The notes beneath the pieces are model-generated. The model searched no databases, was not told where the DNA came from, and was given only the letters and a program-made list of their open reading frames with translations. DNA of 64,000 nt, taken from positions 310,001-374,000 of the forward strand of contig NZ_VTEX01000004.1 in assembly GCF_008180865.1 (NCBI RefSeq), in the 5' to 3' direction. Below, piece after piece: positions 44,509 to 64,000 of the stretch (the first letter of the stretch is position 1; each line of letters opens with the position of its first letter). This DNA comes from Rossellomorea aquimaris. GTDB lineage: Bacteria; Bacillota; Bacilli; Bacillales; Bacillaceae_B. The position numbers and the translations under genes are program-made.

Positions 44509-44718
44509 ATGTCTGGAGTTCTAACGGCACTGGGGTATTTCATTAAAGAGTTAATTTTCCTCGTTTCTTACGTAAAGAACAATGCATTCCCTCAACCTCT
44601 ATCTGCAGCAGATGAACGAAAATATTTAAGGCTGATGGCAGAAGGAGATGAGCATGCCCGTAATATGCTCATTGAACATAACCTGCGATTGGTTGCTCAC
44701 ATCGTCAAGAAGTTATGA
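44509..44718 (+). CDS. sigK: RNA polymerase sigma factor SigK, N-terminal segment (gene interrupted)
   Basis: Sigma-K directs late mother-cell transcription in sporulation and is made as pro-SigK. The frame starts at the ATG at 44509 (GGAGGT 6 bases upstream), with the hydrophobic pro-peptide [21 protein letters not shown] and then [31 protein letters not shown] of sigma region 2. It stops at residue 69 (TTA TGA) where the family continues with FENTGEDAEDLISIG. None of regions 2.2-4 follows, and the DNA changes character at once. This is the left part (spoIVCB-like) of a gene split by a mobile element; the 3' part is not in the window. Alone it cannot be an active sigma factor. Confidence 0.93.
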
Positions 44719-45083
44719 ACATGATATGATGTCGCTTAATTTGAACTATAAAATTTTTAGTATGTTTCGTTTAGATCGAAAAGGCTCCAAACAATCTAAA
44801 TCAATAAAGGAAATGGACAAGCCTCTATTATCAATTTACTAAAAAAAATAAACTTCAACATTATTGTGCTAATAACTTAGAGAAGAAGACTTCTCATTAT
44901 AAATCCCCTTAATTTCACATATGTTTTTCTGGGTAAGAAATCTAAATTTATTTTATAAATCCCATTGTATTACGGATTGTGTTTTTCAGTCGATTATAGA
45001 GTTTAAATAAGAATTATTTGCATTTAATTAAACAATTGGGAATATACTTTCAAAATCTTACAGTAAGAAGAGGAATATAATAT

Positions 45084-45116
45084 GCATCTTGGTTATTTAA
45101 CAAATAACCAAGGTGC
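45084..45116. terminator. Stem-loop after the AAA+ ATPase gene
   Basis: GCATCTTGGTTATTT and its complement (one wobble) around a 3-base loop, 58 bases past the ATPase stop. U runs are short, so termination is likely but not certain. The rest of 44719-45174, the left end of the element, contains no gene I can support; it is AT-rich with short direct runs only. Confidence 0.6.
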
Positions 45117-45174
45117 GTTTTGCACAGTACTGTTATTTTATCGTTTCTCAAGTTTAAACTATCTTAAACGCTCT

Positions 45175-46902
45175 TTAAAGAATTTCTATATCAATCGCAA
45201 TATGCCCCCCAGTTTCTAATTTTGAAGGTATGAATCTTACTCTCTTCTCATGAAATAAGACTTTTTCCCTGTCGTCTATAATTACAAATGACTGTTCAAA
45301 GAAATAGTCAATATCGTCATCACCTTTGATGAAACCTTTATCTTCTCTAACCCACACAACTCGTCCTTCGATTTTTCCTGGGAATGATGTATGTTCTAAA
45401 AGGACATCAGAAATCTTAGTTACTTTCTTTATCCATTCTCCATTCTTCCTACTTCGTGTTCTATCTATTCTCTCAGAGCCAGATAAGTAGTGCGTTGGAA
45501 TATCAAAATAAAGACAATATGCGTAATCAAACGCATAAGTTGTTCCTTTACGGCCTGTGCCATTATCTATAATGTTGAGGACATTATACTCTTCAGATTT
45601 ATTAACGTATTTTGACAAAGGTAAGGACTTACTTGGATATTGAAATCTATATGTGCCCCTACTTTTACAAGTTTTAGCTAGGTTATTCAGAAAATCCTTA
45701 TCAACTTCACTAAATAATGACTCCATAGATTTAGCATGCTCTCTAAGTGCAATTTTCACATGAGCTATTTTCACTTCTTCTGAGCCTTTATTCAAATTAT
45801 AAGCAACATTTAATGATTGATCTAACAACTGAACAAACCTTCTTGCATTACCATTAGAAGCATTAATTAATTGTTCAAACAAGTCTCCTTCTTCACTTGA
45901 TAAGCTAAATAAAAAGTCATACTTAAGTTCTTCATCCATTGAACTAGATATGTACCTTTCAACAAGTTCTAATGTCTTTTCCCTAAAAGAATTGTATCCC
46001 ACATTACTTGTAATATCTTCTTGTAACCACACAATATCACCATATCTGGTTTCATTTAATATATCTGCAGTTGAGTGTGGATACACAGCTACTTTTGTTC
46101 TTACATAGTCTAAAGTCCTTAATTGATTCATAAGCACTTCAAAAAGTGATGGTTCCCCCTCTTCTTGCTTAAAGAAAGCTTTGTTCACTGAACCAGCTTC
46201 GTCAATAAGGAGAAGGATTTTCCCGTTTACATCTTTAAGTAAAGTATTATATACATGATTTACGTCAGCTATTCCAGGATGTCTATTTTGTTTAAGTTCA
46301 ACTACTTTTCCTTCCTTGTATTGAGCAGAAAGCTCAAAAAAGTTGGGCTTTGCTTTACCAGAATAATTTATATCCTTTTGTATCTTCTCAACGTACTCAT
46401 CAGCGTTTAACTTTCTTAGTTCGTTCAATATTTTCGCTAATTTGTGGTCACTTCCTACAGTAGATAATGGTAAAGTTGTTATTCCATTATGTAAATTTGC
46501 AAGTTTTTCACCGTCCTGAAGGTGCAAAAACACTGAAGATATTTCTTCTATAAGTTTTATGATAAATGCATTATAAATGTCAGTAGGATTATTTATATGC
46601 TGAAAGTCACTTAACTTTATATAGACAGGCAGTATTATTTCTTCAGATCTCAATAATGATGGAACTAAGGAATATAAGTAACAAGCATGATTTGCCCTAA
46701 GATACATGGTTTTACCTGTTCCCATACGTCCCTTTACTATCACATTTTCATAATCAAATGGGCTTGATAACCCATTTGTGGGATCAATAAAAAAATCTAA
46801 GATTTGTTCTAAATTAAATTCATCAGCATTTCTAACTTTAAACGGTCTCTTTATATACAAATTTCTAAGTTTATCTAAATCTGATACGTGTAGTTTTTCC
46901 AC
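45175..46902 (-). CDS. AAA+/ORC-like P-loop ATPase with C-terminal cold-shock-like domain
   Basis: A 575-residue protein, GTG start with AGGGG 10 bases upstream, standing alone at the left end of the element. Visible parts: Walker A GRMGTGKT (58-65), Walker B LLIDEAGS (231-238), a sensor-2-like NASNGNARRF (348-356), then a helical/winged region, and at the C-terminus (about 512-575) GRVVWVREDKGFIKGDDD and DYFFEQS, which fit the nucleic-acid-binding core of a cold-shock domain. The order suggests an ORC/STAND-type switch that senses or binds nucleic acid. I do not recognise a named family. A defence role is a guess from context; replication or element maintenance is the alternative. Confidence 0.8.
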   Translation of the reverse strand: MEKLHVSDLDKLRNLYIKRPFKVRNADEFNLEQILDFFIDPTNGLSSPFDYENVIVKGRMGTGKTMYLRANHACYLYSLVPSLLRSEEIILPVYIKLSDFQHINNPTDIYNAFIIKLIEEISSVFLHLQDGEKLANLHNGITTLPLSTVGSDHKLAKILNELRKLNADEYVEKIQKDINYSGKAKPNFFELSAQYKEGKVVELKQNRHPGIADVNHVYNTLLKDVNGKILLLIDEAGSVNKAFFKQEEGEPSLFEVLMNQLRTLDYVRTKVAVYPHSTADILNETRYGDIVWLQEDITSNVGYNSFREKTLELVERYISSSMDEELKYDFLFSLSSEEGDLFEQLINASNGNARRFVQLLDQSLNVAYNLNKGSEEVKIAHVKIALREHAKSMESLFSEVDKDFLNNLAKTCKSRGTYRFQYPSKSLPLSKYVNKSEEYNVLNIIDNGTGRKGTTYAFDYAYCLYFDIPTHYLSGSERIDRTRSRKNGEWIKKVTKISDVLLEHTSFPGKIEGRVVWVREDKGFIKGDDDIDYFFEQSFVIIDDREKVLFHEKRVRFIPSKLETGGHIAIDIEIL

Positions 46903-47059
46903 TTATAACTTTCCCCTTTTATCCTTACTCTTTTCCTATGAATAAAATTATATCAAATTACACTATTTTGAAAAGAAAAAAATAACAGTAACTAACAACC
47001 CAAAATCATACAACTTTCAAAATTAAGTTTATTTACAATCAAGGAAACAAGGAAAATAA

Positions 47060-47644: not shown

Positions 47645-47669
47645 TAGATACCTCCATATAATTCCAAAT

Positions 47670-47700: not shown

Positions 47701-47711
47701 AGACCTTCACT

Positions 47712-48778: not shown

Positions 48779-50365
48779 CTATATGTTACTTAAGTCTATC
48801 TTTAATTTACATTCAAACTTATTTGGAGGATCGACTTTTACATACTCAACAAAATAGAGGAATAATTTTCTTACCTTCACATTAGATAAACCTGGAAGGC
48901 TACGGAGGTCTAAGATAAGACCTTCGATATATTGTTCATCTGCATCAATTTCTTGCAATTTAGCAATTTTGCTTTGCAATTCCACTATCTGTTTGTCTCT
49001 TTGGTTTACAGATTGAGTTAGAATTTCTTTTCCTATATTTAAGTATTTGATAATGGATTTATCCGCTTCTGAAGAAAATAACTGGGCAATCCTACTTTTT
49101 ACTGTTAGGATTTTTAAGTTTTCTTCTCCATTACTCTTCTCAAGAATTGCCTTTTCCTCTTGTAAACTTGAGAGTTGTTTCTTCACCTTTTCCTTAATAG
49201 CTTTCATTACTTTTTCTGGACTTTCACTTTGAATTTTTTGAAACAAGGAAAACATTTCTTTATGAAGACTGTCTACACATATCTTATAATCACATGGATA
49301 GCATACATAAAATTTCCCTCCATAGCCTTTTGAACGTTGGTCTTTACCCTTTAAAGGTTGGTTACATACCTTACAAACAATCAAATTGTTAAGATAGAAA
49401 CTTGTTTTGTAGTAATTGGGTGGATGCTTTTTCTCTTTCCTCTGAGTATATTGAAAGAAACATTCTTCCCACTCCTTTTGAGTAATTACGGGGTCAATAA
49501 GTGGGCTCTTCTTCATTACCCAGTCCTCCCTGGGGTTTAGAGAATTATGAGAAGTAGTGTTTGTCTTCTTTATTGTCATGAATCCAGCATAGAATGGATT
49601 CAGAACTATTTGTTTCACTTTTTGCTTCTCCCAATTTCCCCCTTTATAACTTCCTGCTGGGAGCTTAGTGGCAATTTGATTAAAGCCGTATCCGCTTTTG
49701 TAGAGATTAAAAATCTCTTTAACATGAACGAGCTCTTCATCACATTTTTCAAACTTGCCTTTCTCTATTGCAATGACTTGGTCAATAGAAAGTTCTTTCT
49801 TTATTGATTCAATTACCTGTTGGTTATCATGCTTACCTGTCTTCCGTAGCTTTTTATGATACTTATAACCAAATGGTGCCTTTCCCCCTGTCCAAAGCCC
49901 TTGGTTTAACAGAGATTTTAAAGCATCTTTTGTAGTAACTCTTATCTTATCAAGTTCATATTTAGCTAGGGCATCCTTTATAGACGAATAGACAATGTCT
50001 CCGTAACTGTAAAGAGTTTCAGTGCTGCTTTCCACGATGTGAATACCCAGCATATTCATAGTAAGACGAAGTGCATCGTGTTCTTCTGGTAATCGAGCTA
50101 GTCTAGAGTGCGAATAAACAATGATAAAATCAAAACTTTTTTCGTTAGCTCTTTTAATTAGATATTCCAGTCCCTCTCTGACCTTTTTCCTTGATGAAAC
50201 TCCTTCATCTGAAATTTCATCAATGATCTCACATTGGTACTTTTCTGCAAAATCATAAGCACTTCTTAATTGTGTATCCATATTCTGCTTATCTGTGGAA
50301 TGCCTACCGTAGAAAACAGCCCTCATGCCAGGCTGAATAATATTAGATAAACTCAATGGTTTCAT
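48779..50365 (-). CDS. Large serine recombinase (second of an overlapping pair)
   Basis: A 528-residue recombinase. The N-terminal resolvase domain has the catalytic serine in YGRHSTDKQN (about residues 19-28), and VYSHSRLARLPEE near 83; a recombinase domain follows (about 165-320), then a zinc ribbon with CKVCNQPL and CYPCDYKIC (about 355-385), and a long coiled coil (about 400-490) with a C-terminal DNA-binding tail. It starts 23 bases inside the preceding recombinase gene and is certainly co-expressed with it. The two differ too much to be a recent duplication. Such paired large serine recombinases move SCC-type elements (CcrA/CcrB); that this pair works the same way is inference. Confidence 0.92.
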   Translation of the reverse strand: MKPLSLSNIIQPGMRAVFYGRHSTDKQNMDTQLRSAYDFAEKYQCEIIDEISDEGVSSRKKVREGLEYLIKRANEKSFDFIIVYSHSRLARLPEEHDALRLTMNMLGIHIVESSTETLYSYGDIVYSSIKDALAKYELDKIRVTTKDALKSLLNQGLWTGGKAPFGYKYHKKLRKTGKHDNQQVIESIKKELSIDQVIAIEKGKFEKCDEELVHVKEIFNLYKSGYGFNQIATKLPAGSYKGGNWEKQKVKQIVLNPFYAGFMTIKKTNTTSHNSLNPREDWVMKKSPLIDPVITQKEWEECFFQYTQRKEKKHPPNYYKTSFYLNNLIVCKVCNQPLKGKDQRSKGYGGKFYVCYPCDYKICVDSLHKEMFSLFQKIQSESPEKVMKAIKEKVKKQLSSLQEEKAILEKSNGEENLKILTVKSRIAQLFSSEADKSIIKYLNIGKEILTQSVNQRDKQIVELQSKIAKLQEIDADEQYIEGLILDLRSLPGLSNVKVRKLFLYFVEYVKVDPPNKFECKLKIDLSNI

Positions 50366-51815
50366 TTCCTCCTAATGCATCCACATGGGGATGCTTAAAA
50401 ATAACTTGTACCTCAGTCTTGCTAACTGCGTATATAACTCCAATAATGTCAAGAAGTAAACTCATTGTTTCTTCCTCTTTTAACCCTGCATGAATTATTT
50501 CATAAGGAGGCTTAAACTCTTTATGAAATTTTTTCAATTGTTCAAGAGTGGCTTGTTTTTCATACCACTTATCCTTACAACTTAAATATTGTTCATTCAC
50601 CTCATTTAATTGATCATTAAGACCAATTAATTCATTAGACAATTGCTCTGCTTTATCTGCTGCTAAGATAGCATCAAGCTGTTCGGCAATTTTGGTTTTA
50701 ATTTCATCTTCAATTTTCTTTGACAATAATTCTAGGTCTTTATAAGTTTTGGAATCTTCTCGTATCATTTTCTCTAAAAACACACCTACATTTGGTGAAA
50801 GGATATCTTCAAAGAAATCATTAGCTTTTCTGATAATTTCTTTTTCAATAATGTTTTTTTCATACCTAATATCCTTATGATTGTTACACTGGTAAACAGC
50901 CTTACCTTTTAGCTTTTTAGTATTTAAACTTTCTTTGCAGTCCAAACACTTTATTATATCTTTTAATAAAAAGGTAATTGAAGTATTATCACCCGCTTCT
51001 CGATAATATCCTTGTAGTTTCTTTTGAGCCGAATTCCATTCTTGGTCGCTAATTATTCTAAGATGCGGGACTTCCCTTGTTATTACAGTATCATTGTCAC
51101 TATACGTCCTCTTTCCTATATATACTTTGTTTTTCAAGAGGTTTTTCAAGTTACCATATGACCATTGGAGCCCCTTATATAAATAACCTTTTTCGTTTAC
51201 TAACCTTACAAACTGATTGAAACTTTTAAATTCGTTACTCAAAAATAAGTTATAAATTTGCTTTATGTCTTGAGCTTCTTCTTGCACTACATTCCAGTCA
51301 CCGTCTTTCAAAGGGTTTTTTTCATAACCTATATTTATTGGCCCTACGGCATGAAGGCCCCCTTTGGCTTTAGTAATCTTTGCATCCCTTAACTTTTTTA
51401 CAAGGTTATCAGCTTCATGTTGGTTAAAAGATGCCATGATACGTTCAATTAATTCTCCTTCAATTGAAAAAAGCATTGGAAATTCATGCTTCCCTGCGAA
51501 TAAAACCTGTATTTGATGCTCCTTAAATATCCTATATATCTCCATGTATTGATAAACTTTTCTTGCAATTCGGCATCTGCTATACACGAGTAATGTTTTA
51601 ACGTTTCCTTTTTGGATTTCTTTTAACAACTTAGACATTTCTGGTCTGTCCTTTGTATTTGTTTTTCTAGCTGAAGTTTCATCGTCACTGAATTCTTCAT
51701 CAATAATTAACTTGTTTGAATTGGCTAACTCATGAACGTGATCACGTTGCATGAGTATAGATAGCTTCTGCTTTTCTTTCGTGATGGAATTTCTATAATA
51801 AGCAACAACCTTCAA
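50343..51815 (-). CDS. Large serine recombinase (first of an overlapping pair)
   Basis: A 490-residue recombinase starting at the TTG at 51815 (AGGAGG 7 bases upstream). Catalytic serine in YYRNSITKEKQ (about residues 6-16), a VYSRCRIARK segment near 79, recombinase domain (about 150-290), zinc ribbon CLDCKESL with CNNH (about 312-335), long coiled coil (about 355-440) and a C-terminal tail. An ATG at 51836 is also in frame but overlaps the stop of the upstream 46-residue gene. Operon: 46-aa peptide, this gene, then the 528-residue recombinase. Candidate for integration/excision of the sigK element or of a smaller element nested within it. Confidence 0.92.
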   Translation of the reverse strand: MKVVAYYRNSITKEKQKLSILMQRDHVHELANSNKLIIDEEFSDDETSARKTNTKDRPEMSKLLKEIQKGNVKTLLVYSRCRIARKVYQYMEIYRIFKEHQIQVLFAGKHEFPMLFSIEGELIERIMASFNQHEADNLVKKLRDAKITKAKGGLHAVGPINIGYEKNPLKDGDWNVVQEEAQDIKQIYNLFLSNEFKSFNQFVRLVNEKGYLYKGLQWSYGNLKNLLKNKVYIGKRTYSDNDTVITREVPHLRIISDQEWNSAQKKLQGYYREAGDNTSITFLLKDIIKCLDCKESLNTKKLKGKAVYQCNNHKDIRYEKNIIEKEIIRKANDFFEDILSPNVGVFLEKMIREDSKTYKDLELLSKKIEDEIKTKIAEQLDAILAADKAEQLSNELIGLNDQLNEVNEQYLSCKDKWYEKQATLEQLKKFHKEFKPPYEIIHAGLKEEETMSLLLDIIGVIYAVSKTEVQVIFKHPHVDALGGNETIEFI

Positions 51816-51836
51816 GTAAACTCCTCCTTTAACCAT

Positions 51837-51977: not shown

Positions 51978-52074
51978 AATTACCACCTTATCTTTTTGAT
52001 ATTTAAAAGAAGGAATTGCTTAACTCTTATAGAATGTAGAAATTAACATTATATTGATCGGAGTGGTGACCACT

Positions 52075-53568: not shown

Positions 53569-56522
53569 AATACTTCGTAAATATGTTCCCCTATATGACC
53601 TTCAAGTTGATCACGGAAAAAATCATCTTCTAATACTTTCCCAAAAAAACCTTGGTTCTTGTCATAACCATCTACAACATAGTCCATAAATCGTTTTCTA
53701 AACCCGAGAATGAAATCTTCATATGAATTGTTCTGTGCTTGTGATCGAAGAGTTTCATCACCTGCAGCTATATCAACTATTTGCTGGATGTTTAGTTTTT
53801 CATGTTCTCCAAACTCCGTACCATTCTTAGAGTTAAGTCGCTCTAATATCGCTGTAAGAGGATCTTTAGGCGGGTCTTCATTTGCACGGCCACCACTGAT
53901 ATCAATGCCAACAGTATAATCTTCCTCGTCTTCTCCAAGGGAAATGCTACCCTGTTCTTTCTTTTTTAGAGAGTAGTATTCTAATACCACCTTGTCCTCT
54001 AAATCAACTTTTGTGCCAGGTTTCAATGCAATTTTCTTTAACAGGTAACGAAGGTAAACAAACAGTTTATGCAGATCTACATCCTTAAATGGAGTAATTT
54101 GTAAGACGAACATATAAATGCTATTGAACTTCTTAGCTTTACTTACAAAGTCTCGTTGTTCTTCTTCCGTTAAATTATCATAACGACGCTTTGCCGAATC
54201 GATGTAATTGTTTGAAAGCTCAGTATCACGCTTGGTTTGTTTATCCTTATAGAGAATATCCATGAATTTATCAATTTCTTCATCATTTAAGACCATGTAA
54301 TCCTGCAACTCTTGTTGGATGCTATAAAGCTCATTAGGGTCAATATCACCCTCAAGAACCGTATCTTCGTAATAAGGTTCAAAAGCTTTACGGATGTCAT
54401 CAGGGTCGTTTACAAAGTCGAGAATGAACGTATCTTCTTTCCCTGGATACGTTCGATTTAAGCGTGAGAGCGTTTGAACGGCTTTCAGACCAGAGAGTTT
54501 TTTATCAACAAACATTGTATGTAGCTTAGGTTGGTCAAAACCAGTTTGGTACTTTTCTGCTACCAGCAGCACTTGATACTCATCGCTATCGAACTTTTTT
54601 GGGAGCTGTTTTTCGGCAAATCCGTTCATCTCGGTTTCTGTATAGTCCTCGCCGCTATCTTTTACTGTCCCTGAGAACGCCACCAGAGCCTTCATATCCT
54701 TATAATTCTTGTGTTTAATGTATCGATCAAATGCTATCTTATAACGTACAGCATGAAGTCTCGAGGAGGTTACAACCATCGCTTTTGCCTGACCGTTTAA
54801 TTTTTTACTAGTAATCCTTCTGAAGTGCTCGATGATGATTTCAGTTTTCTGATCAATGTTATGAGGGTGCAGACTCACAAAACGTGATATTGCCTTCGTT
54901 GCCTTGGCACTTTCAAACTCAGGGTCCTCTTCAATTTTCTTTGCCACACGATAATACATTTTGTACGTGGTGTAGTTTTTCAGCACATCAATGATGAATC
55001 CTTCTTGAATCGCTTGCTTCATACTGTAAAGGTGGAACGGGTGCGGTTTCCCTTGTGCATCTTCTGTTCCAAACATCTTTAATGTGCTTCCTTTTGGCGT
55101 TGCCGTAAAAGCAAAGAAACTGATATTAGACTGTTTTCCAACACGATTGATTTCATCGAGAATTTTCTCTTCTGTATCACGTTCGTTCGCTTCCGCTTCC
55201 TCATCCAACTTTTGAGCCTCTTCAAGCGTCAAACTCGTAGTGAGTGCTGCCATGTTTTTCCCGCTAGTGGAAGAGTGAGCTTCATCGATAATAATGGCAT
55301 ATCTCATATTTTTCAGTGTTCCGAGTTTATCTAAGATATAAGGGAACTTCTGAATTGTTGTAATGATGATTTTTACACCCTTATTCAATGCGTCTGCAAG
55401 CTGCGTAGAATCCTCCTCAATCTTTTCCACCATGCCTGCTTTATGCTCCAATTGATACACTGCCTTTTGAAGCTGCTTATCCAAGACTTTACGGTCAGTG
55501 ACCACAATCGCACCATCAAATACGGATTCGTTGTTATCGTTATGTAAGGTAGCTAGTCGATGAGAGAGCCATGAGATGGAATTGGTTTTACCGCTCCCAG
55601 CACTGTGCTGGATAAGATAAGACTGTCCTGGACCGAATGATTTTGCATGAGTGATGACTTTTTTTACAGCGTCTCGCTGATGATAACGAGGGAAGATAAG
55701 CGTTTCTTTTGTGATGATATTACCATCATCATCTTCGTCTTCATCTACGATGAGATAAACAAATTTGTCTAGTACCTCAAGTAAGTTCTCCTGAGACAAC
55801 AAATCTTCCCATATGTAATGTGTACTCAGTTTTCCTTTCACAATCGGGTTGCCTTTGCCGCCGTTAAATCCCCTGTTGAAGGGGAGGAAGAACGTTTTCG
55901 TGCCGTTTAGCTTCGTTGTCATGAATGCTTCATTTGTATCAACGGCAAAGCAGGCAAGAGTACGCTGCTTGAAACGAAATAGAAGGTCTTTTCCGCTTCG
56001 GTCATGCATCCACTGATGCTTGGCATCGCTTACATCCTGACCTGTAAATTCATTCTTCAACTCGAATGCAAGAACAGGAAGACCGTTCAGGAAGATAACG
56101 AGATCGATTCGTTCTCCTTCTTTATGGATCAATTCCTCCGTTACAGACAATCTGTTTTTTTGATACAAGTCCATCAGCTCTTGATTCAAGGAAGTCGGTG
56201 GCTTAAAATAGGCGAAATTCAATTGTACTCCGTAATCTTTAATCCCTTTTCGTAGTACATCAATCATCCCGCGACGTTTCAGTTCTGTATCTATTCTTGA
56301 CAAAATCTTTTGTTTATATTGACCCTTATAAATATCTTTTAACCTTTCTAGGGCTTTGTCTTGTGTTTCCTCTAGAAAAGTAAATAATTGCATTTCATCG
56401 ACTGCATATTGCATATTATAGTCTTTGTTCGTTCCTTCGATATAGCCATTTTCAGTGGTCAAGTATTCCTTGACCACTGTTTGAAATGCCTTTTCTTTTA
56501 AGATATCAGGTGTAACAATCAT
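53547..56522 (-). CDS. hsdR: Type I restriction enzyme, R subunit
   Basis: HsdR translocates and cuts unmodified DNA when assembled with HsdM2-HsdS. The 991-residue protein has the PD-(D/E)xK nuclease core (Asp140, Glu154-x-Lys156 in ERIDLVIF and FELKN), helicase motif I HSAGSGKTN (306-314), a DEAH box in IIIDEAHSS (about 412-420), FFAFTATPKG after it, and motif VI QTLSRLNRTYPGK (about 690-702). All catalytic motifs are intact. Its start overlaps hsdS by 4 bases. Type I complexes protect the cell against phage and plasmid DNA. Confidence 0.96.
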   Translation of the reverse strand: MIVTPDILKEKAFQTVVKEYLTTENGYIEGTNKDYNMQYAVDEMQLFTFLEETQDKALERLKDIYKGQYKQKILSRIDTELKRRGMIDVLRKGIKDYGVQLNFAYFKPPTSLNQELMDLYQKNRLSVTEELIHKEGERIDLVIFLNGLPVLAFELKNEFTGQDVSDAKHQWMHDRSGKDLLFRFKQRTLACFAVDTNEAFMTTKLNGTKTFFLPFNRGFNGGKGNPIVKGKLSTHYIWEDLLSQENLLEVLDKFVYLIVDEDEDDDGNIITKETLIFPRYHQRDAVKKVITHAKSFGPGQSYLIQHSAGSGKTNSISWLSHRLATLHNDNNESVFDGAIVVTDRKVLDKQLQKAVYQLEHKAGMVEKIEEDSTQLADALNKGVKIIITTIQKFPYILDKLGTLKNMRYAIIIDEAHSSTSGKNMAALTTSLTLEEAQKLDEEAEANERDTEEKILDEINRVGKQSNISFFAFTATPKGSTLKMFGTEDAQGKPHPFHLYSMKQAIQEGFIIDVLKNYTTYKMYYRVAKKIEEDPEFESAKATKAISRFVSLHPHNIDQKTEIIIEHFRRITSKKLNGQAKAMVVTSSRLHAVRYKIAFDRYIKHKNYKDMKALVAFSGTVKDSGEDYTETEMNGFAEKQLPKKFDSDEYQVLLVAEKYQTGFDQPKLHTMFVDKKLSGLKAVQTLSRLNRTYPGKEDTFILDFVNDPDDIRKAFEPYYEDTVLEGDIDPNELYSIQQELQDYMVLNDEEIDKFMDILYKDKQTKRDTELSNNYIDSAKRRYDNLTEEEQRDFVSKAKKFNSIYMFVLQITPFKDVDLHKLFVYLRYLLKKIALKPGTKVDLEDKVVLEYYSLKKKEQGSISLGEDEEDYTVGIDISGGRANEDPPKDPLTAILERLNSKNGTEFGEHEKLNIQQIVDIAAGDETLRSQAQNNSYEDFILGFRKRFMDYVVDGYDKNQGFFGKVLEDDFFRDQLEGHIGEHIYEVLKQASAH

Positions 56523-57829
56523 ATTTTCACCTCCAAATCACTTTGTTTATAATTGCGAACATCGGTTTTGCCAGTTACCGCTTCATAGATAAGGGATTGG
56601 CGATACTTCTCTAACGTATTAATTTGACAAGAAAGTTTATTGATTGTATTTTCTATTTCATTAGTTTTTTCAACTAAGTAATTCGATATTTTTGTTTGTT
56701 CTTTAATGGGAGGTAAACATAACACCATATTTCCGAAATCTCGAAACGAAATCGGTTTCCCATCTCTTAAGCTCAAAGACAAAGTTGATAATACATTAAT
56801 GAAAGTCTTACTATAAAACATATATTTAAAGTATTCAGAAACAACATCATATCTGTTTTTAAATACTGTATATGCAGGACTAACAATACCCCTAATTTTA
56901 GAATATTCGAAGCCGCTCTGAAAACTTCTTAAATGTATTACAAATTCTTTCGGTTCAACTAATTTGAAGTTTTGTAAATCTTTAAATGCCATTACCACTC
57001 CAGATTCGATATCTTTTCTGGGAACTAGTCCCCGCCCTTTCATTACTGAAAGCAATTCCTCTTTTGGAAAGTTCTTTTTACTGATCTCTTTAAAAATATA
57101 TTTTGCTTTTTTTAACTCCCAGTGTTCAGGAATTAAACCTATCCACTCTGTCCCACTATCTTTCATTTTTACGTCAGGATCTAACCCACGAGTTACAGTT
57201 TCACTTATAAGAGAATCGCGATATTCTTGAAGAGTTTCAATTTGTTTTCTTCTTAAAATAATAGCTTTGTTTATACCTTCGTCTGCCTCTCTAATAAATT
57301 CTATAATTTTTTTGATTTCTTGTTCCGAGGGAATAGGAATGATAATATCACCAACGGTTTGAGTATTTAAGTTAAGTTGGGTCCCTAATTTCCCTAGTCC
57401 CTTATAAGGTTGACCAGATTCAAAAACATAAAATAAATATTCTCGGAATTCTTCAGCTAGTTTTGGAAAATAAACAAAACCGTCATGGATGCAACAGTTT
57501 ATATTCGTTATACATGGCTTTCCAACAGTGCCAGCTATGCTCAAAAATAATTCGCCTGGATATAATTTTACACTTAGACTGGAACCGAGTCTTGACATTG
57601 CTTGTGTGGTATTAATTAAATATTTACCCGAAGCTGATACGTCAGCAATTCTAACCCAAGCAAATTTTCCTTCTTGTTCGAAATATTTAGGATCATCTAT
57701 AGGTCTCGGAGAGGCACCTCTTTTTACAGGTGAGAGGTATTTAATTTTTTTAGAATCCCAATTGCTTGGTATTTGTCCAATCCATTCTACCTTAGTATCT
57801 TTGTAGGAATTGTATGTTCTTAGTTTCAT
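56519..57829 (-). CDS. hsdS: Type I restriction enzyme, S (specificity) subunit
   Basis: HsdS chooses the bipartite target sequence. The 436-residue protein has two target-recognition domains (about 20-170 and 230-380), each introduced by a WIG-I-P-x-x-W segment (EWIGQIPSNWDSKKIKYL and EWIGLIPEHWELKKAKYIF), and two conserved helical spacers (about 175-215, ending TLQEYRDSLI, and 395-420, ending TLEKYRQSLI). The internal repeat QEYRDSLISETVTRG / EKYRQSLIYEAVTGK is the normal HsdS symmetry. Full length with no frameshift; target sequence cannot be read from it. Confidence 0.94.
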   Translation of the reverse strand: MKLRTYNSYKDTKVEWIGQIPSNWDSKKIKYLSPVKRGASPRPIDDPKYFEQEGKFAWVRIADVSASGKYLINTTQAMSRLGSSLSVKLYPGELFLSIAGTVGKPCITNINCCIHDGFVYFPKLAEEFREYLFYVFESGQPYKGLGKLGTQLNLNTQTVGDIIIPIPSEQEIKKIIEFIREADEGINKAIILRRKQIETLQEYRDSLISETVTRGLDPDVKMKDSGTEWIGLIPEHWELKKAKYIFKEISKKNFPKEELLSVMKGRGLVPRKDIESGVVMAFKDLQNFKLVEPKEFVIHLRSFQSGFEYSKIRGIVSPAYTVFKNRYDVVSEYFKYMFYSKTFINVLSTLSLSLRDGKPISFRDFGNMVLCLPPIKEQTKISNYLVEKTNEIENTINKLSCQINTLEKYRQSLIYEAVTGKTDVRNYKQSDLEVKI

Positions 57830-59868
57830 CAGACTAGCACCTTCTTTAGTAACGCCTGTATGCTTTCTTCTAGATTCACTATCTGTTGTTTCAAAACTTT
57901 TGAGTCCTCTAACCCTTCATATTTATAAAAATGGCGAGTAATAGGCAGTTCATAGCCAATTTTTGTTTTACTCTCATCAATCCATGCATTTGGCACATGA
58001 GGTAAAACATTACTCTTGAAATATTCGTGAATTGTCGCTGTAAGCGGTATGTACTCTATATCTCGAAGTGTCGGATCTGGTTCAATATTCCCCTTTTTGT
58101 CTTTGCAAACATCTGCTGTTTCATCACGCTCTGAAAGTCCCATGTAAATGGCTTTCCACAGTCCCGATTTAACCTCTGGAACATTGTTAAAAAGTGGTTT
58201 AAGTGTGGCGATAAACTCTTCACGATCCTTATAAAGTTGGTCAGAAAAATTCTCTTGAAGGATAGCGATTATTTTCTCTTGGAGCTTTTTACCCTCTTTC
58301 AACTTCGAAAGTTTTTTAATATCAGTAGTCTTTTTATCTTTCTTACGTTGAAAATCAAGGTAAACTTGTTCATCAAATAATTTATTAAAAGCTGACTCAT
58401 TGTATAGATTTTCAATTCGTTCGGGGGTTATCATGAAATTCAATTGCAATGGTCGTTCAACAATAACTTTTTTATATCCAAATTCTTCTTTATCAAATAT
58501 CTTACTGAATTCGTTTTCTTTAAATTCCCCATAAATTCGTGAAATTTCAGAGATTTGTTCATTTGTGATTTCGTTTCTCTTGTTACCCATACTTCTTGAC
58601 ATTTTTACATAAAAGCTTGTTCCGTTAATCAATTGAATCTTTCCTTTTCGTACTGCACCTTTTTCAATGTCCTCGTTCTTCCTGTTAGATAGTACCCAAA
58701 TATATGTGGTAATACCAGTATTATAAAAAAGTTGGTCAGGAAGAGCGATAATACCTTCCAGTAAATCATTTTCAATAATCCAACGTCGAATCTCACTCTC
58801 GCCGCTACCAGCATCACCAGTAAATAAAGGAGAACCGTTCAATATGATTGCCATACGGCTACCTTTTTCGTCCTGTTTCATCTTAGAAACCATGTGTTGC
58901 AAGAAGAGTAGAGAACCATCCGATGTACGAGGGAGACCTGCTCCATAGCGTCCATCGAAGCCTTTTTCTTCGTGTTCTTCTTTGATTTTATCTCCATAAT
59001 GTTTCCAGTCAACGCCAAAAGGAGGGTTCATAAGTGCATATCGAACCTTAAGGTCTTTATGTCCGTCATTGTCATTTAAAGAGTTTCCGAACGCAATATG
59101 CCCTGCGTCTTGACCTTTAATCAATAAATCGGCACATGCAATCGCATAAGACTTCGGATTGAGCTCTTGTCCAAATACTTCTACTTGGGTGCTCGGGTTT
59201 AATTCTTTGATAAACTCTGTTGCTTCAGATAACATTCCGCCTGTTCCGCATGCAAAATCTCCTACCTGAATTATCTTACCTTCTTGCATAAGTTCAGATT
59301 GATCTTCATTAAGTATAAGGTTTACCATAAGCTTGATTACTTCACGAGGAGTATAGTGATCCCCAGCTTCAGCATTTTCAGAAAAACGCCGAATTAGTTC
59401 TTCAAATATGTATCCCATTTGCATGTTTGATACCTTTTCTACGCTAAGATCCATGGCTGCAAACAGTTGGATAACGCTATAAAGCAGGTTATGCTCATCC
59501 ATTTTTTTTATTTCGTCTTCAAAATCAAAGCGTTCGAAAATCACACGCACATTGGAAGAGAAACCTTGTATGTAGTTCCGAAGATTAGCTGCGATGTTAT
59601 CAGGGTCACGAAGCAAAGTTTGGAAGTCGAATGGACTCGTGTTGTTAAAATCGTACCCAGTGATTCTGTTCAAAATCGCATCATGCTTTACAGTTTTAAC
59701 CTTTTCCAGCACTTTTGCTTTCGTAGGCACTAATAAGGAATCAAAACGACGTAATACGCTGAGTGGCAGGATTACATCACGGTATTCTTCTTTTTTATAT
59801 GGCCCACGAAGAATTTCTGCGTTCTTCCATATGAAGTTAACAAATTCACTGTTTTTTATAATTTGCAT
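57829..59868 (-). CDS. hsdM: Type I restriction enzyme, M (methyltransferase) subunit
   Basis: HsdM is the N6-adenine methyltransferase. In the 679-residue protein HYTPREV (171-177) precedes the SAM-binding DFACGTGGM (204-212) and the catalytic NPPF (281-284). An N-terminal helical HsdM_N domain covers about 1-150; the C-terminal 250 residues are longer than in many HsdM proteins and include KKDKKTTDIKKLSKLKEGKK. GAGGTG lies 8 bases before the ATG. It is the first gene; its last base is the first base of hsdS. The 200-base region upstream should hold the operon promoter, not clearly readable. Confidence 0.96.
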   Translation of the reverse strand: MQIIKNSEFVNFIWKNAEILRGPYKKEEYRDVILPLSVLRRFDSLLVPTKAKVLEKVKTVKHDAILNRITGYDFNNTSPFDFQTLLRDPDNIAANLRNYIQGFSSNVRVIFERFDFEDEIKKMDEHNLLYSVIQLFAAMDLSVEKVSNMQMGYIFEELIRRFSENAEAGDHYTPREVIKLMVNLILNEDQSELMQEGKIIQVGDFACGTGGMLSEATEFIKELNPSTQVEVFGQELNPKSYAIACADLLIKGQDAGHIAFGNSLNDNDGHKDLKVRYALMNPPFGVDWKHYGDKIKEEHEEKGFDGRYGAGLPRTSDGSLLFLQHMVSKMKQDEKGSRMAIILNGSPLFTGDAGSGESEIRRWIIENDLLEGIIALPDQLFYNTGITTYIWVLSNRKNEDIEKGAVRKGKIQLINGTSFYVKMSRSMGNKRNEITNEQISEISRIYGEFKENEFSKIFDKEEFGYKKVIVERPLQLNFMITPERIENLYNESAFNKLFDEQVYLDFQRKKDKKTTDIKKLSKLKEGKKLQEKIIAILQENFSDQLYKDREEFIATLKPLFNNVPEVKSGLWKAIYMGLSERDETADVCKDKKGNIEPDPTLRDIEYIPLTATIHEYFKSNVLPHVPNAWIDESKTKIGYELPITRHFYKYEGLEDSKVLKQQIVNLEESIQALLKKVLV

Positions 59869-60079
59869 AAGTTCTACACCTCAATTTAAAATACTTTTAT
59901 TCAATTTGTTGTCGGTTACGTTTTTTATTCTACATTAAGGTTGTCGAACATTTTGTCTAACTTTGTCGAATGAGGGGATTTCTAGCCATATCAAGGCTAC
60001 AGAGTTCTAAAAAGTATGTTTTTTTAAAATGTGATAGGACAAACCTCTCGCTTCATACATTGTGATGAGGTGATGCAGC

Positions 60080-60214
60080 TTGGCAAAGCAGATTGAATTC
60101 GTCAATCACCCCTCCACAGATATAGAATTAGATGAGGAAAAGGCAAGAAGGGTACAAATGCTGATTGCAGAGTTCCTTGTCAAAAAAGCATTAGAAAAAG
60201 CCGCGAGCAGTTAG
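60080..60214 (+). CDS. Small protein of unknown function (44 aa)
   Basis: TTG start with a GAGGTGAT site 5 bases upstream; the product MAKQIEFVNHPSTDIELDEE continues KARRVQMLIAEFLVKKALEK and ends AASS. It is helical and charged. A terminator directly overlaps its stop codon, supporting a real transcription unit. It lies between hsdM and the abortive-infection gene. No function is known. Confidence 0.65.
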   Translation: MAKQIEFVNHPSTDIELDEEKARRVQMLIAEFLVKKALEKAASS

Positions 60215-60228: not shown

Positions 60229-61017
60229 TTACTCATTTGTTTTACTGTCGATGTAGTAAAGAAGTACCCTTGATAAGTTAATGATAAATTTTGCTTCATT
60301 TTCTTCAATGATGTCTTCGTTTGGGTGGGAGAAACCATGGCGATTCCTAATGTCATTCATGTTCTCAAGAAACTTACCAATTGCATTTACTGTTTGATTG
60401 ATGGGTCTTTGATGCTCTCTAACCTCTATGTTAAAACTCGGATGATCTGTTTTGAGTTTACTCCACATATCCTGGATCTTTACGTTTTGCTCACTAAAAG
60501 TGATGTTTTGTTCGTCGCAAAGTGCTTTCAGATAGCCGTGAATTGCTGTGTGGGAACGGTCCACTGCACTGCTATACGAATGTTTTGATATCAATGTGTC
60601 CGCTTGCTGGAGAACTTCTTTTACAAACTCGATATCATGCTTTAGTTCTCCTTGTTCGATTACTTCGCCACGAAGCTGATTAATCCACTGTTCGATTTTT
60701 TCATGTAGCCTTTCTTTATTTTGAAATTCACTTGGTTTGATAATCTCATCCTGCAACATATCTTCAAAAAGGTGAAGTGGATATTTCTCCAAAATACCTA
60801 ATAAAATTTTTGATTGATCAGATGCTGTTGCACCAGTCAGTATTTGAATAAAACGTTCTCTCGTGGTTCCATTATAATCATACGGATTAATATCTAACCC
60901 ACAATAACTCGGGTAGAAATCCGCATGTGTAGAATAAGAAAAATCTCCTAAATAACCTCCACTGACACCTATGTAGGAAACCACACTATTTACTTCTACT
61001 CTTCCTAACTTCCCCAT
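60229..61017 (-). CDS. Abortive infection family protein (Abi_C type)
   Basis: A 262-residue protein starting at the ATG at 61017 (GGAG 8 bases upstream). The C-terminal half has the pattern of the abortive-infection C-terminal family: DRSHTAIHGYLKALCDEQ (about 152-169), then NDIRNRHGFSHP (about 231-242), a motif of HEPN-like RNases with the R-x4-6-H active-site arrangement (RNRHGFSH). The N-terminal half is unassigned. It stands beside a type I restriction operon, so a second-line anti-phage role, killing or stalling infected cells by RNA cleavage, is likely but inferred. Confidence 0.78.
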   Translation of the reverse strand: MGKLGRVEVNSVVSYIGVSGGYLGDFSYSTHADFYPSYCGLDINPYDYNGTTRERFIQILTGATASDQSKILLGILEKYPLHLFEDMLQDEIIKPSEFQNKERLHEKIEQWINQLRGEVIEQGELKHDIEFVKEVLQQADTLISKHSYSSAVDRSHTAIHGYLKALCDEQNITFSEQNVKIQDMWSKLKTDHPSFNIEVREHQRPINQTVNAIGKFLENMNDIRNRHGFSHPNEDIIEENEAKFIINLSRVLLYYIDSKTNE

Positions 61018-61157
61018 ATTCACACTCCTAACAAATATTTGAAACTATATTCATTATACCGATTGAGTTCTTCCCTGTAATCCATAAATCAGGAGAGATG
61101 TGCTGATTCTGAATTGTTTCAAAATCGGTCAGTAATGAGAAAAAATCATTTTGCATG

Positions 61158-61185: not shown

Positions 61186-61277
61186 GTCTCAAAACTCATT
61201 CTCAATATCATCGAATCATTATGTATGAAAAAAAGGTTTTTGACACTATACTACAAGACTAAAATAAGGTGATTAGA

Positions 61278-61862
61278 ATGGGAAGGAAATTGGGATACGC
61301 ACGGGTTTCGACAAAGGATCAAAAACTGGAACTGAAGATCGATTCCCTGATAGAAGCTGGTGTAGAAGAACGGGATATTTTCAAGGAAAAAATAACGGGA
61401 AGTAAAAAAGAAAGACCCGCACTAGAACAGTTGATGGAATACGTGGAGCCTGGCGATACCATTGTCGTATGGAAACTCGATCGAATGGGAAGAAGCATCA
61501 GGCACTTAATTGAACTCATGGAGCACTTCAAGGAACAGAACATCGCCTTTGTATCTCTGCAAGAAAACATCGACACATCATCTACTACGGGTAAATTGAT
61601 CTTCAATATCTTCGCGTCATTCTCTGAATTTGAACGGGATATGATCATCCAACGAACGAAAGCTGGATTAGAAGCGGCTCGTGCAAGAGGTAATAAAGGT
61701 GGGCGTCCAAAGAAAGACGAAGCTGCCATTAAACGGGCTTTGAAATTGTATCATTCTAAAGAATATTCGATTAAAGAAATCGCCGAGATGACTGGCGTTA
61801 GTAAAGCAACACTGTTCGGAATATCGAGAAAAAAGCTGCGAAATAACTCGCAGCTTATTTAA
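61278..61862 (+). CDS. Small serine recombinase (resolvase/invertase family)
   Basis: A 194-residue recombinase with the catalytic domain (about 1-135): catalytic serine in YARVSTKDQ (about 7-15), VVWKLDRMGRS (about 63-73), and SEFERDMIIQRTKAGLEAARARG (about 115-137); the C-terminal helix-turn-helix is IKEIAEMTGVSKATLFG. The ATG at 61278 follows AAGGTGA by 6 bases. Proteins of this size resolve cointegrates or invert DNA segments in Tn3-like transposons and plasmids; no transposase or res site is evident next to it. Confidence 0.93.
   Translation: MGRKLGYARVSTKDQKLELKIDSLIEAGVEERDIFKEKITGSKKERPALEQLMEYVEPGDTIVVWKLDRMGRSIRHLIELMEHFKEQNIAFVSLQENIDTSSTTGKLIFNIFASFSEFERDMIIQRTKAGLEAARARGNKGGRPKKDEAAIKRALKLYHSKEYSIKEIAEMTGVSKATLFGISRKKLRNNSQLI
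61832..61860 (+). terminator. Stem-loop at the end of the resolvase gene
   Basis: AAGCTGCGA and TCGCAGCTT arms around a 6-base loop, overlapping the last codons; only a weak T run follows. Confidence 0.65.
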
Positions 61863-61972: not shown

Positions 61973-62212
61973 ATGTTCACAAATTTTAAAATCTTCGAGC
62001 CATATATGAATCCTAACGAATTTGAGGAAATGAATAAGCTATATGATACAATTCAATCACGCGAATCATCGTTAGAAAGTAAATTGATTTCATATCGTGC
62101 ACTAAATAATTTGATTGAATTGGTACGTTATCGAATCAAGCAAGATAATAAAATAAATTATCCCCCCTCTTCTAAAAAAGTAACGTCTATATGGTATAAT
62201 AGAAAAAAATGA
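61973..62212 (+). CDS. Small soluble protein of unknown function (79 aa)
   Basis: The product starts MFTNFKIFEPYMNPNEFEEM and is helical and charged, with SSLESKLISYRALNNLIELV in the middle and a basic C-terminus ending TSIWYNRKK. A GTGGTGG site lies about 7 bases before the ATG. The next gene follows 24 bases later on the same strand. No family is recognised. Confidence 0.6.
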   Translation: MFTNFKIFEPYMNPNEFEEMNKLYDTIQSRESSLESKLISYRALNNLIELVRYRIKQDNKINYPPSSKKVTSIWYNRKK

Positions 62213-62236
62213 CATTAAATAGGCGGGGTACTAAAC

Positions 62237-62713
62237 GTGGATTTATTAATGCACTTAAAAGCGTTTTTTACAAGCGAATTGTTCTTATTGTTCTTCACTA
62301 TTATCGCTACAGGTATTGGAGCGGCAGAAACAAGGATGGCGTTAGAATTACTACATATTCATCAAAAATTCAACTTGCACCTTCTCGATGAAGAAGATAG
62401 AAAATGGATTTTAAAAAGTCAATTTCGACTACAAAGGTATAAAGTCGGAATTGCAACATCGTTTTTGGCAATCATCTCCTTAGCAAGGGAACTCGATCAC
62501 TTGAATCAGTCAATCATAGGTTTAATTGCTTCATTAAGTGGTATAAATTTCTTATCAAAACAAATTGATGGGAATTTTGAAACTGCAATAGATGCCTATT
62601 TACAAGGTAAAGTGGATGAAAAGTTATTTAATCTCCAAAATGATTTAGATGAAATTGCCAAAGAAGCTAAGGATGAAGAAAAACCAGATCAAAAAGAGAA
62701 AGAAACTGCTTAA
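62237..62713 (+). CDS. Membrane protein of unknown function (158 aa)
   Basis: GTG start with GGGG 8 bases upstream. Two hydrophobic helices (about residues 8-28 and 73-103, the second possibly two short spans) flank a hydrophilic loop with LLDEEDRKWILKSQFRLQRY; the C-terminal 45 residues are acidic and Lys-rich (EIAKEAKDEEKPDQKEKETA). It lies between two small genes on the same strand, 15 bases before the next one. Small membrane proteins near defence genes can be effectors, but nothing in the sequence shows a function. Confidence 0.62.
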   Translation: MDLLMHLKAFFTSELFLLFFTIIATGIGAAETRMALELLHIHQKFNLHLLDEEDRKWILKSQFRLQRYKVGIATSFLAIISLARELDHLNQSIIGLIASLSGINFLSKQIDGNFETAIDAYLQGKVDEKLFNLQNDLDEIAKEAKDEEKPDQKEKETA

Positions 62714-62728
62714 AAAGGAGTGTTTCAA

Positions 62729-62932
62729 ATGAGAGTTAATTTAGAATCTCTGCAAAGAAACGCACAAAGGTACTTATCGGAATATGAATACGATCAATTT
62801 ATGAGATACCTTGAGGAACGTAACAGTACCAATATCGCAATACGAGTTCATGCAAATATGGAAGTATCTCGTATGGTAAATACAATTAAAAGAAATGCCC
62901 GACGACGAGTTAATACGGGTGTAAGAAGCTAA
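62729..62932 (+). CDS. Small basic protein of unknown function (67 aa)
   Basis: ATG at 62729 with AAGGAG 8 bases upstream; the product starts MRVNLESLQRNAQRYLSEYE and ends RNARRRVNTGVRS. It is helical and Arg-rich at the end, as if binding nucleic acid. It closes a three-gene run (61973-62932) and is followed directly by a strong terminator. No family is recognised. Confidence 0.62.
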   Translation: MRVNLESLQRNAQRYLSEYEYDQFMRYLEERNSTNIAIRVHANMEVSRMVNTIKRNARRRVNTGVRS

Positions 62933-62936
62933 AACG

Positions 62937-62963
62937 AAACCGCTGAAAATAGCGGTTTTTTTT
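62937..62963 (+). terminator. Terminator of the three-small-gene unit
   Basis: AAACCGCT / AGCGGTTT perfect stem, 6-base loop, then eight T. Confidence 0.92.
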
Positions 62964-63105
62964 ATTAAATTCACTTAGGTGCTCAATGTGATTTTGGTAA
63001 GTAATTCCGAGACCTGTTTAAACTCCAGAAAAACTCCTATACTTTTAATGATGAAGATGAATGATGAATATACATAGCATTAAAAGAATAAAAGGAGTTT
63101 ATTCT

Positions 63106-64000
63106 ATGATAGGAATATATTGTCGTGTCAGTACGCAAACACAGGCTGACGAAGGATACAGCTTGGAAACACAGGAAGAACTCTGCATGAAGCGTGCAAA
63201 AGATCTCGGATATCCCCCCTCTCAAGTCAAATTGTACCGAGAAGAAGGTCGTAGCGGTGAAGATATCGATCGACCTGTGATGAATGAGCTGCGTGAAGAT
63301 ACCGCAAATGGTGTGACTACGAAAGTCATCATCACGGATCCTGACCGATTAACAAGGGACCTGACAGATAAGCTGATTGTATGTAAAGAATGGGACAGAC
63401 AAGGCGTAGAAATCGTATTTATCGACACTGAATACCAAAACACCCCTGAAGGGCAAATGTTCTTTAACATGCGTTCTGTATTCGCTCAATATGAACTCTC
63501 GCAAATCCGAAAACGAACCATCCGAGGAAGGCTCCGTGCAGTCGAGAAGGATAAAAAAATCATGCCGATGAGAGTAGCTCCTTATGGATATGACTACAAG
63601 GACGGAGAACTGCTTGTAAATGACCAAGAAGCGGTCTTTGTAAAGAAGATATACAAATGGTACTTAGATGGCTCTACGCTTCGAGAAATCGGTAATAAGC
63701 TGTTTAAAGCGGGTGCTGTTCCAAAACGTGCGGAAAGTAAAAATTTCGGAGCAACTTCCATCCGTCGTATTTTAACTTCAGAGATATACTTAGGAAAATA
63801 CGTTTACAACAAACGTGAAACGAAAAAGGTATGGGGCGAGCGAACGTCCTCTGGGAAGCAAAAGAAAACATACACCATACGGGATGAAGCGGATTGGATT
63901 ACAGTAGATGTCCCTCAGCTCATTGATCAAAAAACCTTTGACTTAGCACAAAAGCAAAAAGAAAAGAACATAAAAAAACGTGGTAACGTGAAATTTAACT
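63106..64000 (+). CDS. SpoIVCA-like large serine recombinase (cut by the right edge)
   Basis: The first 298 residues of a large serine recombinase; ATG at 63106 with AAGGAG 8 bases upstream. Catalytic serine in IYCRVSTQTQADEGYS (about residues 4-19), TDPDRLTRDLTDKLI (about 77-91), NTPEGQMFFNMRSVFAQYE (about 110-128), then the recombinase domain with ATSIRRILTSEIYLGKYVYN. These features match B. subtilis SpoIVCA, the skin excisionase, more closely than the paired recombinases at 48779-51815 do. The sequence is uninterrupted up to the window edge; the zinc ribbon and coiled coil must lie beyond. It is the leading candidate for the enzyme that rebuilds sigK. Confidence 0.9.
   Translation, partial: MIGIYCRVSTQTQADEGYSLETQEELCMKRAKDLGYPPSQVKLYREEGRSGEDIDRPVMNELREDTANGVTTKVIITDPDRLTRDLTDKLIVCKEWDRQGVEIVFIDTEYQNTPEGQMFFNMRSVFAQYELSQIRKRTIRGRLRAVEKDKKIMPMRVAPYGYDYKDGELLVNDQEAVFVKKIYKWYLDGSTLREIGNKLFKAGAVPKRAESKNFGATSIRRILTSEIYLGKYVYNKRETKKVWGERTSSGKQKKTYTIRDEADWITVDVPQLIDQKTFDLAQKQKEKNIKKRGNVKFN

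Follow-up and report, generated by a model that had tools for sequence, protein, structure and literature searches.

The window analyzed here is a 64,000-bp stretch of the Rossellomorea aquimaris genome (C12:310001–374000; genome 4.74 Mb, 17 contigs), in which the sporulation sigma factor gene sigK is split by an inserted element. The 5′ part of sigK (44509–44718, plus strand) runs from an ATG at 44509 to a TGA at 44716–44718, comprises 69 codons in the list of open reading frames (ORFs) and matches positions 4–69 of the TIGR02846 profile with 86.1 bits; its last codon and the TGA are produced by the junction itself. Positions 60–227 of the profile are matched with 283 bits on the plus strand at C12:374668–375171. 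This 3′ part (C12:374668–375204, equivalent to 64668–65204 in window numbering) begins 668 bp beyond the right edge of the window, about 20 kb downstream, in the same orientation as the 5′ part. An earlier note on this DNA had described a sigK truncated by an in-frame stop and had proposed an intervening element of more than 19 kb with a 3′ half to the right in the same orientation, and all three points are borne out.

An exact 13-bp direct repeat, ACATCGTCAAGAA, is present in both halves at C12:354699 and C12:374678, 19,979 bp apart. This core spans codons 64–68 (nucleotides (nt) 191–203) of sigK and is the longest exact repeat at the junctions, the others being at most 8 bp long when 400 bp around one junction were compared with 1,200 bp around the other; it also matches the uninterrupted site of neighboring genomes. 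The left copy, attL, lies at 44699–44711 (plus strand) and the right copy, attR, at C12:374678–374690. The element, measured from core to core, occupies 44699–64000 of the window without an assigned strand, its right end lying past the window. Its guanine-plus-cytosine content is 34.7%, versus 41.3 and 41.8% in the left and right flanks. Upstream of the 5′ part, a promoter-like box, AGGACA-N12-CATA, was located by pattern match (44448–44469, plus strand).

At the right junction, a large serine recombinase of 539 residues with Resolvase, Recombinase and Zn_ribbon_recom domains (63106–64000 in the window, ending at C12:374725; plus strand) reads toward attR, and the 3′ end of its frame crosses attR into sigK; this protein is the candidate excisionase/integrase. 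These features support the interruption of sigK at a clean attachment site by a site-specific element with its own recombinase adjoining. Neither of the two observations that the earlier note had named as refuting its reading was made: a 3′ half of sigK is present within 20 kb, where the note allowed roughly 100 kb, and an intact second sigK was not found in the assembly by a TIGR02846 profile search (cut-off, 298.65). The next strong match (C1:517277, positions 17–227, 265.9 bits) does not reach this cut-off and is ascribed to the paralogue sigE. With the split, the core, the empty site in related genomes, the junction recombinase and the lack of another sigK, the element is a sigK-intervening (skin-type) element. 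It differs from the Bacillus subtilis skin proper, which is characterized by its own site and an AATGA core.

The empty site and selection on sigK

In the genus, sigK is found above the profile cut-off in 33 of 36 genomes (that of R. aquimaris being one of the 36), and the site is uninterrupted in all 30 intact copies fetched from these 33. The R. aquimaris gene is split at profile positions 60–69. When aligned with one intact copy (L096), the stretch of attL that ends with the core and the stretch of attR that begins with it each differ by two substitutions. The pooled ratios of nonsynonymous to synonymous differences (pN/pS) of the R. aquimaris halves against the 30 intact copies are 0.076 (5′) and 0.021 (3′); when each intact copy is compared with the other 29, the medians are 0.080 (0.064–0.149) and 0.023 (0.018–0.041), respectively. 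Because the values of the halves match these medians, both halves are taken to be under normal purifying selection and sigK is not decaying, although a young insertion could look alike. The other 35 genomes of the genus contain no close copy of the recombinase, with six showing matches at E ≤ 1e-30 of only 26–34% identity, which makes a recent arrival of the element in this genus probable.

In two other genomes of the genus, sigK is in pieces. In G036, the pieces overlap at profile positions 109–111, lie on different contigs (L134 and L135) and include a 5′ piece adjoined by a recombinase of 30% identity; the place of this split is presumably near the B. subtilis skin site. In G015 (C78:63082–63662), pieces matching positions 34–172, with one internal TGA, and 166–227 are mutually out of frame, pointing either to a non-sporulating strain or to an assembly error (7% contamination).

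In an evenly chosen sample of 397 genomes of the order, sigK is found above the cut-off in 347, and 351 have a match at 1e-82, the additional four being R. aquimaris, G077, G347 and G378; the matches listed singly cover part of the sample, with 26 of the genomes without a match and many of those with one lying outside the listing.

Recombinases at the same sigK site in other genera

Scanning the genome_contigs collection with the recombinase gave eight loci, five close (68–80% identity) and three distant (22–31%). The close loci are those of Cytobacillus eiseniae, Peribacillus saganii, Heyndrickxia camelliae, Fictibacillus fluitans and Peribacillus kribbensis. All five recombinases adjoin a sigK half, the 3′ half in four cases and the 5′ half, in the opposite direction, in P. 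kribbensis, and in each of these genomes the sigK halves meet at the same place. A recombinase profile built from R. aquimaris, these five relatives and G042 detected five genomes in the order sample at E ≤ 1e-110 (R. aquimaris, G042, G077, G347 and G378), all with sigK split at this site. G347 is P. saganii and was counted once. At an identity of at least 49%, the recombinase occurs in nine distinct genomes including R. aquimaris, and in 9/9 sigK is split here with the recombinase beside one half. Both recombinase loci found in viral_contigs (52 and 46% identity) also adjoin sigK fragments. From one sigK half to the other, the elements measure 3.3 (G378), 8.6, 13.7, 18.2, 18.6, 20.0 (R. aquimaris), 20.5 (G077), 22.1 and 83.7 kb (P. 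kribbensis).

The arms around the core form imperfect inverted repeats about a central AA, agreeing at 15–22 of 30 positions in eight elements, a count made with no random control; F. fluitans, whose attL is divergent, was set aside. Such symmetry is as expected of the attP site of a serine integrase. In several relatives the recombinase stop codon sits within sigK DNA, and hence excision would alter the C-terminal end of the protein. An overlap of the recombinase and sigK frames is also described for B. subtilis and the Bacillus cereus island (PMC10745906).

In P. kribbensis (L034:10001–11731), the recombinase frame extends tens of codons into sigK in antisense, within an element of about 84 kb. 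Both arms and the central AA look unchanged there although the recombinase lies at the 5′ half, and its placement would be due either to an inversion or to relocation of the gene. Upstream of the recombinase, a motif CCTATACTTTTAAT...GAATATA is seen by eye in 5/7 elements (e.g., L024:3000–3105), to which no sigma factor is assigned.

The two viral_contigs loci, both from IMG/VR, show sigK in more than two pieces or broken off. In L148 (G422; 4075–11556), of which 15.7 of 61 kb were read, the recombinase of 52% identity at this site is followed by sigK positions 63 to about 113–122. Next come an insert of about 4 kb that encodes both a polysaccharide deacetylase and a second recombinase, sigK positions 112–145 and, last, a third recombinase. 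This order strongly indicates a sigK cut at three sites by three recombinase elements, as an incomplete gene; a weak further sigK match at 25075 of this contig (17.5 bits) was taken as noise. In L149 (G423; 887–2765), the same-site recombinase of 46% identity and sigK positions 62–143 are present before the gene breaks off, which is likely a second interruption. The outer sigK ends were found in neither contig by the profile search.

A 44-residue protein as candidate directionality factor

ORFs of at least 35 residues from seven elements were compared all against all, after removal of those lying within the recombinase or sigK genes or antisense to them. Apart from the recombinase, one gene recurs nearly throughout: an ORF of about 44 codons, with a TTG start in R. 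aquimaris (60080–60214, plus strand), which has blastp matches in 5/6 other elements (E = 2e-15 to 4e-5) and is the predicted recombination directionality factor. The recombinase gene follows it immediately in C. eiseniae, H. camelliae, F. fluitans, P. kribbensis and G378, whereas the two genes are separated in R. aquimaris, P. saganii and G077. In the order sample it occurs in six of the 397 genomes, a number that stayed at six with a wider profile including the new members: four of the five recombinase-bearing genomes versus 2/392 others. As R. aquimaris and G347 are within the six sequences that made the profile, the independent cases are G077 and G378, where the gene is present, and G042, where it is absent. 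The remaining two carriers, G130 and G279, have an intact sigK.

The G378 element (L153:6118–9386) is only 3,268 bp long. Its ORFs of at least 60 residues are the recombinase and a Gfo/Idh/MocA oxidoreductase, besides one antisense inside the recombinase; the 44-residue ORF stands between the two genes. This element is close to a minimal skin.

A second AGGACA-N12-CATA box precedes the 44-residue ORF of R. aquimaris (60036–60057, plus strand), 21 nt ahead of the start. In 8/10 copies of this gene, the generalized pattern WRRACA-N12-CATA is present no more than 70 nt from the start, whereas random windows of 70 nt from these sequences contain it at a rate of 0.0015. The pattern was taken from the first six copies, and of the further four, those of G077 and G130 are positive; part of the conservation of the gene and of its box thus rests on copies from which the profile and the pattern were built. 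The sigK gene itself has this pattern in front of it in R. aquimaris and in 22 of the 30 intact copies of the genus. The consensus sequence of SpoIIID is WWRRACARNY. We take TAGGACAAAC in the box of the 44-residue gene to fit this consensus, and ATA and CATA presumably fit the sigma-E promoter elements. The spacing of sigma-E promoters is given as 12 ± 1 in a study of B. subtilis, in which SpoIIID activates both the 5′ sigK gene and spoIVCA (PMC517825).

From these features a course of integration and excision is inferred, including the directionality role, the cell type and the timing, and it is held to be highly probable as a whole. The skin-type element, with its non-phage cargo, resides at sigK codons 64–68, where the recombinase now beside the 3′ half would have integrated it by recombining attP, with symmetric arms and a central AA, with the attB site of sigK. 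The recombinase would hold the element locked in through growth. In the sporulating mother cell, the 44-residue protein would be made from its promoter of sigK-like architecture, presumably under sigma-E and SpoIIID, and would bind the recombinase and redirect it to excision between attL and attR. Excision would join the two sigK halves at the 13-bp core, restoring the reading frame, and would release a 20-kb circle. The forespore would retain the element, so that its type I restriction-modification (RM) and AbiJ-like cargo is inherited; loss of RM genes in the mother cell would be costless because that cell dies. That excision would be required for late sporulation follows from the anatomy of the element and from the experimentally studied cases (PMC5025042; PMC10745906). 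The 44-residue protein is predicted to be the factor confining excision to the mother cell.

Several observations weigh against a dedicated role of the 44-residue protein at sigK. In R. aquimaris its gene lies 2.9 kb from the recombinase, beside the RM and AbiJ genes. The six-sequence profile gave a weak seventh homologue in G042 (E = 0.005) and none there in the order-sample searches. The box of G378 is one letter off, G279 has no box, and the strict box precedes sigK in just 1/6 other split genomes checked. The G279 homologue is 82% identical, yet sigK is intact and no recombinase is detected at E ≤ 1e-110; as it sits in the same module (L154:3054–10943), the gene could hitch-hike with the RM/AbiJ genes. 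The G130 homologue belongs to an element interrupting gerE, whose recombinase is a distinct one (about 27% identical). In an alternative account, the mother cell would induce just the recombinase, and the 44-residue protein would be something else, e.g., a part of the RM/AbiJ module; this account is unlikely but carries appreciable weight. The adjacency of the gene to RM/AbiJ genes in R. aquimaris and G279 is consistent with this alternative, as is the recombinase's own conserved upstream motif, noted by eye in 5/7 elements. However, no hsdR or hsdM homologue was found by tblastn at 1e-8 in the fetched regions of six carriers of the gene (C. eiseniae, P. saganii, H. camelliae, F. fluitans, P. 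kribbensis and G378), and the box of sigK-promoter architecture belongs to the 44-residue gene.

Other objections concern excision itself. The recombinase tail of R. aquimaris is out of frame relative to those of its relatives, with about 20 last residues instead of about 12 (e.g., DDIASWSHRQKI in C. eiseniae); by eye, two bases fewer stand just before attR. This shift could weaken the recombinase or be a sequencing error. It would suit a recent, non-excising insertion that has left sigK dead and the strain without mature spores, as would the absence of a close recombinase copy from the 35 other genomes of the genus and the broken sigK frame of G015. Such a state is nevertheless improbable: neither half is damaged or out of frame and both are under normal purifying selection (decay might not yet be visible in a young insertion), no domain of the recombinase is missing, and the 44-residue gene and its box are still present. 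Excision by another recombinase of the element, either the overlapping pair or the Pin-like protein described below, is very unlikely. Three further serine recombinases are indeed encoded in the element, but the attR recombinase is the only one common to all sigK elements at this site. The pair is represented, beyond the similarity general among recombinases, in only 3/9 elements (R. aquimaris, F. fluitans and P. kribbensis), and the analogous pair of the gerE element is reported to be unexpressed in growth or sporulation (PMC5595907). An assembly artefact fusing two unrelated regions can practically be dismissed; the assembly is a draft, but a single 504-kb contig holds both halves with the exact core repeat, and the same site and recombinase recur in eight other genomes.

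Beyond excision directed by the 44-residue protein, a broader scheme is put forward only tentatively. The gene might represent an undescribed family of directionality factors, with a promoter convergent with, or copied from, that of the interrupted gene, such that exit from the chromosome is timed by the sigK switch. The module might move among sigK, gerE and other islands, allowing arbitrary cargo, defense islands included, to reside at no cost in essential sporulation genes, and the sites might be stackable, as suggested by the related contig with three apparent cuts in sigK.

Two islands from genomes with an intact sigK are of interest here. That of G279 has the order hsdR-hsdS-hsdM, 44-residue gene and AbiJ-like gene, with identities to the R. 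aquimaris proteins of 95% (hsdR), 84% (hsdM), 85% (AbiJ-like) and 28% (hsdS); it also appears to have Tn7-like genes, as read from its ORFs. In G130 (L162:9204–9443 and L155:7278–15189), besides the homologue with the sigK-like box, two diverged copies of the 44-residue gene, one partial, stand just before the recombinase of that element. Pfam GerE is matched by the two gerE-like fragments at 5.5e-16 and, under the cut-off, at 6.3e-4, and the neighbors as read from ORFs are sdhCAB, a thioesterase, a MarR protein, RacE and a GerM-like protein, which we take to be the known gene order around gerE.

Cargo and relation to known elements

The recognized cargo includes a type I RM system on the minus strand, assigned by Pfam and PADLOC and consisting of hsdR (restriction subunit, 53547–56522), hsdS (specificity subunit, 56519–57829) and hsdM (methyltransferase, 57829–59868). 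An AbiJ-like protein is encoded on the same strand (60229–61023; Pfam Abi_C, PADLOC AbiJ at 2e-9). The hsdR product is 95% identical to that of G279 and 84% to that of G077; since hsdS is only 28–32% identical, the specificity is swapped, as has been described for the B. cereus islands (PMC10745906).

Two large serine recombinases, recognized by their domains, overlap on the minus strand (48779–50365 and 50343–51836), and a small Pin/resolvase-like serine recombinase with an HTH_7 domain is assigned by Pfam at 61269–61862 (plus strand). An ORC-CDC6-like ATPase, possibly a defense protein, lies at 45175–46902 (minus strand; Pfam PF24389 at 1.5e-12; an NCBIfam anti-phage family at 28 bits versus a cut-off of 370) and has no PADLOC match. 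A helix-turn-helix (HTH) protein is encoded at 52554–53411 (minus strand; HTH_17 marginally under the curated cut-off) and an Xre/Cro-type HTH regulator at 52054–52407 (plus strand; NCBIfam below cut-off). The elements of F. fluitans and P. kribbensis encode homologues of this regulator and of both overlapping recombinases. Three small ORFs (79, 158 and 70 residues; 61973–62932, plus strand), without a family match in PHROGs or NCBIfam, form a cassette shared with the G042 element, as found by comparison of element ORFs.

A subset of the element ORFs was scanned for phage genes (10 with Pfam and 10 with PHROGs, partly overlapping), and none of these proteins is a phage structural, packaging or lysis protein; PHROGs matches are to integrase, invertase and transposase families, with one marginal match to a sigma factor (6e-4). 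The element thus does not present itself as a prophage, and its recognized cargo appears to consist mostly of anti-phage and recombination genes. The description of the element as a parasite in the earlier note is therefore only half right. An origin from a phage or plasmid was considered and rejected: the 44-residue gene has no match in viral_contigs, plasmids, phages or PHROGs, and the recombinase matches to phage records (429, with the 15 listed at 27–32% identity) and plasmid records (258) are all below 60% identity.

In the relatives, chosen larger ORFs were scanned (17 outside G077 and two in G077), three of which had no match. Among them are a RecJ-like protein, a DUF4011/MTES_1575 helicase-nuclease and a major facilitator superfamily transporter in C. 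eiseniae; GGDEF/EAL and STAS proteins in P. saganii; glyoxalases, DUF3231 and ArsB in H. camelliae; ArsB and an ApeA-type HEPN protein in F. fluitans; a C5 methylase and a HATPase protein in G042; and hsdR and hsdS in G077.

Non-prophage mobile islands have thus come to rest time and again at a single precise point within the gene of the last sporulation sigma factor, in Cytobacillus, Peribacillus, Heyndrickxia, Fictibacillus and further genera. The 44-residue protein under a sigK-like promoter is a candidate, open to experiment, for the component that the switch has lacked so far. It is also a testable idea that terminal mother cells turn sporulation genes into safe harbors for defense islands, as the loss of restriction genes from such cells does not kill progeny. 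Skin elements, non-phage gene-intervening elements and insertion at this sigK position with a type I RM system are already in print (PMC5025042; PMC10745906; PMC5595907). The element is accordingly new, as the earlier note had supposed, but it is not a new kind. New are the R. aquimaris member, the distribution of its family over several genera, the predicted directionality factor and a related contig with an apparent triple cut of sigK; in the literature searched, which left most subscription papers outside, no report was met of this cross-genus family, the 44-residue gene or a multiply cut sigK.

The closest described counterparts are Island IV of B. cereus biovar anthracis and the islands of EFR-1/EFR-4, of comparable size (22,211 and 21,367 bp; PMC10745906). 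Island IV is described as inserted at nt 195 of sigK, within the nt 191–203 covered by the R. aquimaris core. Like the R. aquimaris element, it carries type I RM genes, here with a specificity subunit that varies, together with HTH and recombinase genes, and it has a 545-residue recombinase at a sigK junction; no phage genes are described there, and excision during sporulation has been demonstrated (PMC10745906). By description, the R. aquimaris element is thus Island-IV-like in its site near nt 195, its type I RM system and its lack of recognized phage genes. Unlike the recombinase here, which adjoins the 3′ fragment and reads toward it, that of Island IV is described as adjoining the 5′ fragment in the opposite direction (PMC10745906).

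The B. subtilis skin is also an element with a large serine recombinase in sigK, but its skr gene overlaps spoIVCA, whereas the 44-residue gene of R. aquimaris is separate and 2.9 kb off. It has a small directionality-factor ORF, Skr, of 64 residues (PMC6957869) and SpoIIID control of both recombinase and sigK (PMC517825), and it differs in its sigK site with an AATGA core, its prophage cargo and the position of its recombinase at the 5′ half (PMC10745906). The gin element has a different target, gerE; it is described as a non-phage island with RM genes and, as in R. aquimaris, a recombinase pair plus a third recombinase, and its directionality factor is GirX, a protein of 42 residues that offers an analogue of the 44-residue protein (PMC5595907). 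The Clostridioides difficile skin is described as prophage-like, 14.6 kb long and located at another site, after a 5′ sigK part of about 404 bp. As in R. aquimaris, its recombinase lies immediately upstream of the 3′ part of sigK, and a separate directionality factor, CD1234, is expressed under sigma-E and SpoIIID (PMC5025042).

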